Shown here: piece by piece, positions 5,855 to 50,092 of the stretch
How the letters are laid out: each line of letters opens with the position of its first letter
How positions within the stretch are numbered: position 1 is the stretch's first letter
Assembly: GCF_016592595.1 (NCBI RefSeq)
Contig: NZ_AP012977.1
Coordinates: 868,001 to 932,000 of the forward strand
Reading direction: 5' to 3'
Origin: Abyssogena phaseoliformis symbiont OG214
GTDB taxonomy: Bacteria > Pseudomonadota > Gammaproteobacteria > PS1 > Pseudothioglobaceae
DNA: 64,000 bases
Made by a program: the position numbers and the translations under genes
The notes under the pieces: model-generated
Databases searched by the model: none
The model's input: only the letters and a program-made list of their open reading frames with translations
Told to the model about the DNA's origin: nothing

Positions 5855-6743
5855 TTAGAATTCGTAAGCAACTTTTAAGCCATTGACTGCTTTTTGTCCA
5901 TCCACTTTATTGTTTTCAAAAAAGACAGTAACACCTTCTGCCGGTGAAAGACTATAAGTCAAACCTTTTTGTTTATCGCCGCCATCAATCTTACTATAAG
6001 CCAAGTTAAGACTAGCATCTATGCCTTTTAATTGGGTGAGCATAACTCAATTCAATATATTGAGCCTTAATGCTATTTGCCACACCTTGGTTAGTTTTCA
6101 CAGCTTCATAGTAAAAAAAGCCCAAGCCATTGTCCAAACTAACTCCTAAATGATAAGCATTAGAACTGCCGTAACCTGTTGTGCCGCCTTTGAAATAATC
6201 CATACCAGTACTAAAAATATCTTTGCCATAATTAATGCTAACACCAGTATCGTTATCAGTGTCTTTATAACTGTAAATAGAAGCTTGAACATCACCAAAA
6301 TCAGCACTTAGCATTAGCATATCTTTGCTACCCCCTTGTCGGCATTTGTTATGCCCTTGGCAAGTGGGTCTGTTATCATGCCAGTTTTATAAGTGCCAAA
6401 TGATGGCACACCAATACGGACTTTATTAGCTGTAAAGTTACCATTGTGATAATTAATCATTGCCTCATCTAAAATAATATCGTCTTCCCCTCTTCTTTTA
6501 ACTTTGATTGTGCCATCAAACTGCTCATTCACTGCGTGTGAAACAGTCAGTTCTAAATCGCCAAACTCAACCTTTGTCATTACTTGAACTGTATACCGTT
6601 TCAATCAAGCCGCTGACACTTGTTGCTGATTACGTTGTCTCTAAAGCAGTAATACGATCTTTTAATACATCTATTTCTGTACTTGCAAGTGCAGTTGTAC
6701 CAACAATTAACATACTTAATGCTATTACCTTATTTCTTTTCAT
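5855..6743 (-). pseudogene. Outer-membrane porin relic, probably LbtU-type siderophore porin
   Basis: The start (ATG at 6743) encodes MKRNKVIALSMLIVGTTALA, a signal peptide, then a short coiled segment (DVLKDRITALETT). An in-frame TAA follows, then SATSVSGLIETVYSSSNDKG, after which the frame shifts at least three times before the C-terminal VNGLKVAYEF. A terminal Phe is usual for beta-barrels. The blocks DEAMINYHNG and VPSFGTYKTGMITDPL resemble the LbtU siderophore-porin family, in which a plug-less barrel takes up legiobactin. The nonsense codon and several shifts rule out one sequencing slip. It heads the imelysin operon, so import across the outer membrane by this route is lost. Confidence 0.65.
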
Positions 6744-7565
6744 TGTGTCTATCCTATACATTTTAATTAGAAATGTCGCAGAACTACTCCTGCAAATTTG
6801 ATGCCTATACGCATCACTCTTAATTCAACTTCTTTTGTTTTTTATTAGAGGGTTAATTTTTTGAGTTAGTAAATGATATCAGTTCGTATTTGTATTTGCA
6901 ATACGATATAAGAATTTTATGATATATCATTTTCTTAACAGTTCAAACAAACAACTTAATAAGCAAAAATATTGTTTAGTAGCTAAATTTCAGTCAAATC
7001 AAGTTCACTCTCAATTAAAAGTGAATCGTCAAAATCTCTTAAATACTTAGCCATGCTATTAATTAAATTAATTTCCATAGATCTAGTATTTGCACTTAAT
7101 TTAATTAATAATCACTCTTTTCGTACTCCCAATTCTTATTCAAAATGGTTGCTTAAGTCTTTCTTTATTTCATCAAGAAATGTTTGTTTAATCATTTAGT
7201 TTGGAAAATTAAAGCGCCGCTATAGAGTCTAAATCTAATCGATTATGATTGCGCAGATAACTAAGTTTATATTGTTGCCAAAAACCAAACATATTTATAT
7301 TTTATTAGCACAACTACCGCAAGACTTAGATTTGCTTGATGGTGTTATGATATTTTTCATTTGTTTTTCCATGTTAAATAGTTGCCCCTACAAGGCTGGG
7401 GTAACCAATTTACCCATTGAATTTGAGGGGTTGGATGATATAAACCCGTCATGCATTTTTGGTTTGCCTCACACTTGATTTAAGAGCATGAGGCGATGTT
7501 GAAATGATTGCTATCGGAGGTAATTAGCGAAGAGAGATAAGCAATACATTTCTAACCTGCATTAA
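6744..7565. other. Intergenic stretch with decayed remnants, no confident gene
   Basis: No long convincing frame is seen. On the minus strand short pieces look like worn coding sequence: MIKQTFLDEIKKDLSNHFE (from about 7195), a 31-codon open frame at 6983-7078 (MEINLINSMAKYL...), and a 25-codon frame around 7291-7371 ending KSCGSCANKI. None is recognised. They lie downstream of a Fur box and a micro-gene on the same strand, so the stretch may be the remains of a Fur-controlled operon. The open plus-strand frame at 7245-7478 has no ribosome site and no family resemblance. Confidence 0.35.
6884..6930. promoter_or_regulatory. Two inverted repeats upstream of the porin-imelysin operon
   Basis: TCGTATT at 6884-6890 is mirrored by AATACGA at 6900-6906 with a 9-nt spacer. 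A perfect 12-nt palindrome, ATGATATATCAT, lies at 6919-6930. They sit 140-190 nt upstream of the porin start on its strand. The second resembles Fur half-sites (TGATA/TATCA) but is not a full Fur box. Operator function is inferred only from position and symmetry. Confidence 0.35.
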
Positions 7566-46222: not shown

Positions 46223-47631
46223 TGAAGGATTTGCGCATGGTGTTTAAGTCTAGAATGCATAATATTCATTTTGTTGGTATTGGTGGTTCGGGTATGAGTG
46301 GCATTGCTGAAGTGCTTCATAACCTTGGTTATAACGTGTCTGGATCAGACATTAACCCTAACAAAATCACTGATAGATTAGAAGAAATGGGTTGCAAAAT
46401 TTATCATAAACATCATCAAAATAATATAAAAAATGCACAAGCAATCGTTGTATCTAGTGCGATTAAGAATAACAATCCAGAAGTAATCAAGGCACATCAA
46501 CTTAACATTCCAATTGTGCCTCGCGCAGAGATGCTAGCAGAATTAATGCGCTTTAGATTTGGCATCGCGATTGCAGGCACTCATGGGAAGACAACAACTA
46601 CCAGTATTATCACTCACATACTCAATACGGCTGAACTTGACCCAACCTATATTATTGGCGGGATATTAAATTCAAGCGGGATTAATGCCAAACTAGGTGA
46701 AAGCGATTATTTAATTGCTGAGGCGGATGAATCTGATGCTTCATTCTTGCACTTACAACCCATGTTAAGCGTTATCACCAACGTTGATTATGACCATATG
46801 GCAACTTATGGCAATGACTACCAAAACCTAAAAGATGCCTTTGTCAGTTTTAGTGCTAATTTACCATTTTATGGCACTTGTGTTATGTGTATAGATGATG
46901 AAGGTGTGAATGAAATATTGAATGATATTCATCGTCCAATTATCACTTATGGTTTTAAGGATGGTGCTGATATTCAAGCTATTAATGTAGAACAAGTGAG
47001 TATGCAAATGCACTTTGATGTTATTTATGATAAATATACAAAGCCATTCCCTATCAAGCTAAATCTAATTGGCAGGCATAATATTCTTAATACATTAGCA
47101 GCGATTGGTATTTGCTGTGAGCTTGATATTGATATTGATATTATTCAAAAAGCATTGGCTAATTTTTCTGGTGTTGCTAGACGACTTGACCATCATGGAA
47201 AATTAAATATCAACAATACCCAAGTATCTTTGTTTGATGATTATGGTCATCATCCAAAAGAAATTAGCGCTGTGTTCAAGTCTATTAAAGACACTTATCA
47301 AGATAGACGTTTGGTGGTTATTTTCCAACCACACCGCTATTCTCGTACGCGTGATTTGTTTGATGATTTTGCTCGTACACTCAGTAGTGCCGATGCACTC
47401 ATATTGCTAGACATATATCCAGCCCAAGAAAAACCCATTGCCCGTATTAATTCTTCCACCTTGGCTGATGCAATTAGAAAGCGTTCTGGCTTAGAACCAG
47501 TGGTGATAAAAAATCCACAAGAAATTTTAACTGTGCTACCTAACATTATTAATAATAACGATGTATTATTAACTCTAGGTGCGGGTGATATTCACACTCT
47601 ACCTGATTTGCTAAAATCCAACTATGCTTAA
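46222..47631 (+). CDS. murC: UDP-N-acetylmuramate-L-alanine ligase
   Basis: 469 residues. GIGGSGMSGIAEVLHNLGY opens the UDP-binding domain, the ATP loop is AGTHGKTTTTSII near residue 114, and DDYGHHPKEI with FQPHRYSRTRDLF mark the C-terminal domains. It adds L-Ala to UDP-MurNAc. The ATG at 46222 is coupled to ispF; an internal ATG at residue 12 (MHNIHFVGIGG) is a possible alternative. Confidence 0.96.
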   Translation: MKDLRMVFKSRMHNIHFVGIGGSGMSGIAEVLHNLGYNVSGSDINPNKITDRLEEMGCKIYHKHHQNNIKNAQAIVVSSAIKNNNPEVIKAHQLNIPIVPRAEMLAELMRFRFGIAIAGTHGKTTTTSIITHILNTAELDPTYIIGGILNSSGINAKLGESDYLIAEADESDASFLHLQPMLSVITNVDYDHMATYGNDYQNLKDAFVSFSANLPFYGTCVMCIDDEGVNEILNDIHRPIITYGFKDGADIQAINVEQVSMQMHFDVIYDKYTKPFPIKLNLIGRHNILNTLAAIGICCELDIDIDIIQKALANFSGVARRLDHHGKLNINNTQVSLFDDYGHHPKEISAVFKSIKDTYQDRRLVVIFQPHRYSRTRDLFDDFARTLSSADALILLDIYPAQEKPIARINSSTLADAIRKRSGLEPVVIKNPQEILTVLPNIINNNDVLLTLGAGDIHTLPDLLKSNYA

Positions 47632-47642
47632 GGATAACTGGT

Positions 47643-48475
47643 TTGCTATTGCATAACGAGCCTATAAGTTTGCATTGTTCATTCAAAACAGGTGGATTGG
47701 CACAAGATTTTTTTATCCCCAATGATGTCACTGACTTATCTAATTTTCTAAAAACCAATACCAAGCCATTGTTATTTTTAGGATTAGGCAGCAATTTGCT
47801 TGTGCGCGACCAAGGTTTTGAAGGTGTAGTGATAAAATTAAGCAACTTAAAACAAAAAAAAATTAAAAAAATACGCTTTGGGTTGAGGCAGGTACAACAC
47901 TAGCAAAACTATCCAGATTATGCCGTGCAAACTATTTATACGGTGGTGAGTTCTTGTCTGCCATTCCAGGTACTGTTGGTGGCGCACTGATGATGAATGC
48001 AGGTGCATTTGGGTCTGAATTCTGGCAATACGTTATTAGTGTGACTACTATTAATCAATCAGGCGTTATATCTAAACGCACCAAAAATGATTTTGATATT
48101 GGGTATCGACATATCCATGCTCAATATACTAATGAATACTTTGTTAATGCAACCTTGGTATTTAACCAAAAAGAACCTCAACAAAATATCAAGCAATTAC
48201 TGGATAAGCGCAATCAACACCAGCCAATTGGCAAAGCAAGTTGTGGCAGTGTGTTTAAAAATCCAAAAAATAATTTTGCAGCAAAACTGATTGAACAAAG
48301 CCAATTAAAAGGCGTTTGTATAGGTGGTGCTTGCGTATCAAACAAGCACGCTAATTTTATCATCAACCAAAATAAAGCCAGTAGTACTGACATTATAAAT
48401 TTAATTACCCACATTCAACAAACCGTAAAATCAAACTTTAATATTGATCTAGAATTAGAGGTGGTGATTAAATGA
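47643..48475 (+). pseudogene. murB: UDP-N-acetylenolpyruvoylglucosamine reductase, single -1 frameshift at an A7 run (may be rescued)
   Basis: Frame 1 from TTG 47643 (AAGGA 8 nt upstream) reads NEPISLHCSFKTGGLAQDFF and LFLGLGSNLLVRDQGFEGV to a TAG at 47901. The rest, WVEAGTTLAKLSRLCRANYL, YGGEFLSAIPGTVGGALMMN AGAFG, CGSVFKNPKN and the end ELEVVIK, is in another frame. The join is the A7 run at 47865-47871, just after an A9 run at 47854-47862; eight A in the second run would give one 277-residue MurB. All catalytic motifs are intact. MurB is essential for peptidoglycan, flanked by intact murC and ddl, and translationally coupled to ddl (ATGA). I therefore suspect slippage rescue or a sequencing error rather than real loss. 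Confidence 0.85.
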
Positions 48476-49353
48476 TTGCAGTGCTAATGGGTGGAAATTC
48501 AGCAGAAAGAGCGGTTTCTCTTAAAAGTGGCGAGGCTGTTTATCAAGCGCTAATCAGCCAAAATATTGATTGCTTTAAATTTGATTGGTACAAAGATAAC
48601 TTGTCAAAACTTTGGCAACAAGAATTTGACCAAGCCTTTATTGTTTTGCATGGTCGTGGCGGTGAAGACGGATATATTCAAAAACAACTAGAAAGCCGAG
48701 GCATTCGTTATACAGGATCTGGCTCAAATGCTAGCCATAATGGCATGGATAAAGCACGTACTAAAATGATCTGGAGGCAGCACAACCTTACACTTGCACC
48801 CTCTATTGTTGCAAGCATTAATCAACCTATTGAATCTATTGACTTTCCACTACCTTGGGCAGTTAAACCCACCCTAGAAGGCTCTAGCATTGGCATTAGT
48901 AAAGTTGATAGTCAAATACAATTAGATGATGCACTAACACTTGCTTGGCAATACAACCCACATGCTTTAGTTGAGCAATGGATTGAAGGTGATGAATACA
49001 CAGTGGCAATTTTGGGCGACAAAGCCTTGCCCGTTGTGAAAATTATGACTGACCAAGGTTTTTACGATTATGAATCAAAATACCACTCGAATGAGACCCA
49101 ATACTCATGTCCTTGTGGTTTAAACCCATCCCAAGAGCAAGCATTACAAGCCATTGCGCTTGAAGCATTTTTTGCTATTAGTGCCAAAGGATGGGGGCGA
49201 GTAGATTTCATTATTAATCAACACAACAAACCTTATTTATTAGAGATTAATACCGTCCCAGGCATGACATCAAACTCATTAGTACCCATGGCAGCAAAAG
49301 CAATGGACATGAGCTTTGATCAACTAGTCGTGGCAATTATTGATGAAATATAA
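48472..49353 (+). CDS. ddl: D-alanine-D-alanine ligase
   Basis: 293 residues. N-terminal MGGNSAERAVSLKSGEAV, HGRGGEDGYIQ, the ATP-grasp PWAVKPTLEGSSIGISKV and metal-binding FIINQHNKPYLLEINTVPGMT are all present. It joins two D-Ala for the pentapeptide. Overlaps murB by 4 nt and ftsQ by 11 nt. Confidence 0.96.
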   Translation: MIAVLMGGNSAERAVSLKSGEAVYQALISQNIDCFKFDWYKDNLSKLWQQEFDQAFIVLHGRGGEDGYIQKQLESRGIRYTGSGSNASHNGMDKARTKMIWRQHNLTLAPSIVASINQPIESIDFPLPWAVKPTLEGSSIGISKVDSQIQLDDALTLAWQYNPHALVEQWIEGDEYTVAILGDKALPVVKIMTDQGFYDYESKYHSNETQYSCPCGLNPSQEQALQAIALEAFFAISAKGWGRVDFIINQHNKPYLLEINTVPGMTSNSLVPMAAKAMDMSFDQLVVAIIDEI

Positions 49354-50092
49354 GCGTAGGAGTAGACGCAAAAAGTCTATTTATCAACCTGTATTTAAAC
49401 TAATATCTATTATTGTTTTATTAGGGTTCATTACATGGGGCATACAAAATACCCACCTAAGTGAGTTCTTAAAAGTTGATATTAATTGGGAGATTGATAA
49501 AAATCTTCCAGTCACACAGCAGGCATTAAAACAACACATACTCCCCTTAATCACTGAAACGTACCAACTAAATTTACACGAAATTAAACACGAATTAGAA
49601 CGCCATCCGTGGGTAGCAGAGGCAGAAGTAAGTCGTCTTTTTTGGAATTTTATCAATATCAAAATCAGTGCACAACAAATCAGTATGCGCTGGAAAAACA
49701 AAGACTGTCCGAATGATACCAAAACACAAATCTGCCAAGGTTATATCTCCACCAAGGGTGGGCTATTTACACCCGATAAAATAATCAAATCAGATGCCAT
49801 TATTGCCACTTCAGCACATAATAAAGACATTGCAAAAACCCTATTTGATGATTACCAAACCTATCAAACCATTATCAAGCCAATGGTCATTACATCCGTC
49901 TTTAAAACTAATATTGATACTCTTTTTATTAAGCCTAATATTAAAGTCGTATTAGGCTACCAAAAACAGCAAAAACGACTCAAAAACTTTGTTAAAGTCT
50001 ATAAAAAATTAAGACAATCAATTGCGCACGCTAAACTCAATCGTGCTACATTTGATATGCGCTACGCTAAAGGATTTAGCCTCAAGCTTTAG
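49343..50092 (+). CDS. ftsQ: Cell division protein FtsQ
   Basis: 249 residues from ATG 49343: a basic cytoplasmic tail, one membrane helix (LISIIVLLGFITWGIQ) and a POTRA-like domain with HPWVAEAEVSRLFWNFINIK. FtsQ anchors FtsB-FtsL at the septum. In most relatives ftsA and ftsZ follow; here the run ends against a convergent minus-strand gene. Confidence 0.9.
   Translation: MKYKRRSRRKKSIYQPVFKLISIIVLLGFITWGIQNTHLSEFLKVDINWEIDKNLPVTQQALKQHILPLITETYQLNLHEIKHELERHPWVAEAEVSRLFWNFINIKISAQQISMRWKNKDCPNDTKTQICQGYISTKGGLFTPDKIIKSDAIIATSAHNKDIAKTLFDDYQTYQTIIKPMVITSVFKTNIDTLFIKPNIKVVLGYQKQQKRLKNFVKVYKKLRQSIAHAKLNRATFDMRYAKGFSLKL

Follow-up and report, generated by a model that had tools for sequence, protein, structure and literature searches.

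The murB locus of this symbiont raises the question of whether the single-base frameshift that divides the gene is present in the symbiont DNA and, if it is, how the enzyme would still be made. The window, which is the whole 64,000-nucleotide stretch of DNA that was analysed, covers bases 868001–932000 of a genome of 1,542,177 bp assembled as one contig and 99.99% complete. The relatives of this genome are symbionts of vesicomyid clams; the host is a deep-sea clam, and the symbiont is sulfur-oxidising. Two congener genomes measure 1,160,782 and 1,022,154 bp, and the published sizes for R. magnifica and V. okutanii are 1.16 Mb and 1.02 Mb, respectively (PMC3202245). For murB, comparisons were made with 11 congeners (G001–G011), or 12 genomes including the one that holds the window.

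Like its counterparts in all congeners, the gene has a TTG start codon, here at 47643; its TGA at 48475 overlaps the ATG of ddl at 48472. Both halves are recognised by curated models. The N-terminal half matches PRK13905.1 (68.9 bits), and the C-terminal half matches the same model (216.2 bits) as well as TIGR00179 (149.1 bits, above the cut-off), with a MurB_C domain match that is also above the cut-off. The similarity to MurB therefore extends over both domains, while the single uninterrupted reading frame is broken at 47865–47871. Other than this frameshift the gene carries no further lesion. No second murB was found genome-wide: there is one MurB_C match, and no other FAD_binding_4 match adjoins a MurB_C domain. 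The sequence-only reading had described a murB divided where an A7 run lacks one A, between intact neighbours and with ddl still coupled to its 3' end, and had proposed a search for another copy; all of this description holds, and the gene is the only murB in the genome. The features of the locus are collected in the table.

Features of the murB locus, with positions in the window
Feature	Position	Strand	Remarks
murC, intact	46222..47631	+	TIGR01082, 548 bits
murB (UDP-N-acetylmuramate dehydrogenase), sole copy, frameshifted	47643..48475	+	NCBIfam murB models on both halves
murB N-terminal reading frame, 86 aa, premature stop	47643..47903	+	TTG start
A9 run in murB	47854..47862	+	unique to the window lineage
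TAA in the frame of the murB C-terminal part, between the A9 and A7 runs	47864..47866	+	
A7 run in murB, site of the lost base	47865..47871	+	A8 in the closest relative, G007
murB C-terminal ORF, 173 aa from TTG, without the N-terminal FAD-binding part	47954..48475	+	
ddl, intact, 4-nt overlap (ATGA) with the end of murB	48472..49353	+	NF002378, 377 bits
ftsQ-like, open	49340..50092	+	weak PRK10775 match

Since both halves match MurB models and the TTG at 47954 could restart translation, the two ORFs might be thought to yield two polypeptides that associate into a functional enzyme. However, it is the FAD-binding domain that the break interrupts, a product of such a restart would miss a stretch of conserved codons that separates the TTG from the break, and a split murB occurs in none of the 11 congeners. 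A functional split gene is thus highly improbable.

Comparison with the congeners defines the missing base. The gene is 833 nt long in the window genome and 834 nt in all 11 congeners, whose frames are open up to the first stop at codon 278. The frameshift is seen in one of these 12 genomes only, and the shifted state is not conserved among them. The site of the A7 run reads TTGAAAAAAA(T/C) in nine congeners and TTAAAAAAAA(C/T), i.e. A8, in the remaining two, G007 and G009. G007 is the closest relative in murB, with 93% identity. Because this relative (like G009) carries A8, the simplest history is a G-to-A change followed by the loss of one A (A8 to A7). A one-step loss of the G from TTGA7 is also possible, but is less likely given that the closest relative is already A8. 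The neighbouring A9 run was created by a C-to-A change on the window lineage. In other respects the congener genes resemble the one in the window, with the same TTG start and, in the loci examined, the same murC-murB-ddl order; they differ in their 834-nt length, in keeping the frame, and in having GA7 or A8 in place of A7.

Two further observations were made at this locus. The closest relative varies by gene over 46222–49353, being G010 for murC and ddl and G007 for murB, a pattern hinting at recombination between lineages. In addition, the metagenome-assembled genome G008 contains ~700 bp of unrelated sequence between murB and ddl (L006:2333-3055; L031:about 6250-6976), which leaves a false ddl start behind murB.

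A single base at an A8/A7 homopolymer next to an A9 run is a typical place for an error of assembly or base-calling, in which case the symbiont DNA would have A8 and murB would be ordinary and intact. The intact gene in 11 of 11 congeners, the normal flanking genes and constraint, and the otherwise undamaged murB all fit such an error. Moreover, errors escape selection, so a lone break in a conserved gene is how an error would be expected to look. To set murB against the background of the assembly, 269 orthologous ORFs (664 kb, or 43% of the genome) were compared with those of one congener. Of these ORFs, 18 contain just one frameshift and lack an internal stop; in nearly all of them the frameshift lies at the very start or end of the ORF, or the ORF is short. 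No other gene of 450 nt or more among the 269 shares the condition of murB, in which one frameshift in the interior is the sole lesion; within the window, murB is the only sense-strand gene common to the relatives that is frameshifted here. The frameshift is not background noise.

A 464 kb sample bears on errors of a more general kind. Its 214 intact genes contain 36 A/T runs of at least 8 nt, there is no shortage of long A/T runs, and the run-length spectra resemble those of two relatives. Because murB is the sole case of its kind and long runs are not depleted, the assembly is unlikely to suffer from systematic homopolymer errors, and a general error of this type was rejected. These observations also count against an error at murB itself, although a rate of about one error per 40–50 long coding runs is still compatible with murB as the only case among the 269 ORFs. 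An isolated error thus has a substantial claim, nearly as likely as a real deletion with leaky expression, and would make the locus a useful correction to the reference genome. A separate lesion was noted elsewhere in the genome, where 2 bases are inserted in a 302-aa gene that G007 keeps intact (G000:C1:815715-816691); by eye, the product of this gene resembles an FMN-binding protein of the glutamate-synthase type.

If the DNA does have A7, the arithmetic of the reading frame limits the ways in which full-length MurB could be produced. Both runs were lengthened and shortened in silico. Changes of A9+1 and A9-2 end at 73–74 aa whatever happens at A7. Slippage at A9 cannot restore the frame, since the TAA at 47864–47866 sits in the restored frame between the two runs. 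If A9 is kept as it is and A7 is altered by at most 3 bases, the normal end of murB is reached only by A7+1 (277 aa) and A7-2 (276 aa). The proposal that polymerase slippage on A9/A7 would restore the frame in part of the transcripts is therefore confined to A7, the A9 tract being blocked by the TAA. A ribosome that slips by -1 on A7 has the same effect as A7+1 and restores the frame equally well, a route that was absent from the sequence-only reading.

The A7 site does not have the features of programmed -1 frameshifting, that is, an X-XXY-YYZ heptamer with a stimulator. The zero-frame slip site AUU AAA AAA AUA gives U-AAA-AAA, not the classical A-AAA-AAA/G heptamer. The hairpin downstream of A7 amounts to only about -9 kcal/mol, and no obvious Shine-Dalgarno stimulator was seen upstream of the run by eye. 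A tract of seven is also short for transcriptional slippage.

A mutational setting for a real deletion is provided by the mismatch repair genes. No match to MutS (PF00488) was found in the window genome, in any of the 11 congeners or in four sampled members of the family (G000–G015), while MutS is present in 11 of 14 control genomes. This distribution suggests that mismatch repair was lost long ago. Runs of A8 are expected to be unstable without mismatch repair. A real deletion from A8 to A7 is plausible because MutS is missing throughout the genus, and the genus-wide loss is a reason to expect more such frameshifts.

The population biology of related symbionts is also relevant. For 'Ca. R. 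magnifica' the effective bottleneck per generation was estimated at about eight genomes, and a related symbiont is cited as having about ten copies of its genome in each cell (PMC13345212). With a small bottleneck and polyploidy, a deleterious allele could drift up in frequency or coexist with an intact copy. Such drift would also accommodate a recent null allele, in which murB is inactive or has begun to decay and either the wall is dispensable or intact copies persist in polyploid, mixed symbiont populations. One published comparison suggested that peptidoglycan synthesis may be unnecessary for vesicomyid symbionts (PMC2642828). The expectation that loss of murB should be lethal unless the wall is lost is not assured for this group.

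The state of the rest of the wall pathway speaks to both sides of this reading. No match to FtsZ (PF00091) was found genome-wide, though the ftsQ-like gene and two transpeptidases remain. A Mur-ligase fragment, named Mpl-like by eye and open over 253 aa (L187:1575-2336; G000:C1 about 97.1–97.8 kb), is probably a decayed recycling gene, and further genes are decaying in the window genome and its relatives. These losses are consistent with a null. However, murA, murC-G, mraY, ddl and the two transpeptidases are all open in the window genome, murB has no second lesion, and even congeners of ~1.0 Mb keep murB, murC and ddl intact and under constraint. The wall pathway is retained, as the sequence-only reading held, and a wall-less organism was rejected because most of the murein-precursor pathway is open.

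Changes along the window lineage are in keeping with this retention. Codon changes unique to the branch number 12 nonsynonymous (N) to 15 synonymous (S) in murB, 5:16 in murC and 5:20 in ddl. The ratio in murB does not differ from that on the murB branches of G007 and G010 together (19:34, P=0.48); N changes are slightly raised in murB relative to murC and ddl combined (12:15 versus 10:36, P=0.06). The branch counts of the three genes show purifying selection, and the pathway appears still to be constrained. By these counts, selection acted on murB along the whole branch or the greater part of it, though the deletion may be too recent for them to reveal whether murB has stayed under selection since. 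Overall, a real null is unlikely, while clearly more credible than two cooperating half-proteins.

Two elements of the favoured model are inferred: A7 as the true state of the DNA, and slippage as the source of the enzyme. A real A8 to A7 deletion with leaky rescue at A7 is the leading candidate, held tentatively and with less than even confidence. Under this model, replication slippage would recently have deleted one A in the sole murB, with MutS absent. RNA polymerase would then add one A at A7 (giving A8) in some transcripts, yielding some full-length MurB; alternatively, the ribosome would slip -1 on AAA-AAA, where the next codons are AAU-ACG. Occasional slips at A7 would provide enough of the full-length protein, and the A9 run would play no part. 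A broader version of this model is more doubtful: that an essential wall gene has become fixed in a frameshifted state in a marine clam symbiont without mismatch repair, is expressed only through low-level recoding at A7, and marks poly(A) recoding as a general part of symbiont erosion and not one restricted to insects. If real, the locus would add a chemosynthetic clam symbiont to the insect symbionts in which poly(A) frameshifts are tolerated. It would also be a clean test case, because one 7-nt tract alone can restore the frame.

The closest natural parallel is found in the genes of Blochmannia and Buchnera that are frameshifted at poly(A)/(T) tracts. Blochmannia vafer has eight such genes, among them dnaG, dnaX and pth (PMC3017870). 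As in those cases, murB has a single homopolymer indel in an important gene that shows no other decay, in an AT-rich, maternally transmitted symbiont, and rescue by slippage was proposed there as it is here. The comparison with insect symbionts made from the sequence is apt in that the tract is of a kind with documented bypass; it departs from them in the host, which is a deep-sea vesicomyid clam, and in the run of seven, shorter than the tracts of 9–12 nt discussed for the insect symbionts. By the usual description of poly(A)-tract genes, murB has the single indel in an A/T homopolymer within an otherwise intact gene, but lacks a frameshift conserved across species, all 11 congeners being in frame. 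Unlike some of the Blochmannia genes, its shifted state occurs in one genome only. Against such rescue, a genome-wide survey of Buchnera and E. coli saw insertions rise exponentially with run length but no case of a reading frame restored by a transcription error (PMC5574713). An experimental counterpart comes from M.HaeIII in E. coli: its 8A repeat likewise had one A deleted, and bypass of the deletion reached functional levels (PMC3812077). Functional full-length protein was made in that system through slips of the polymerase and/or the ribosome, although M.HaeIII was a laboratory plasmid gene under selection and not a natural chromosomal gene like murB. The murB case is, in this company, a fresh instance of an already known phenomenon.
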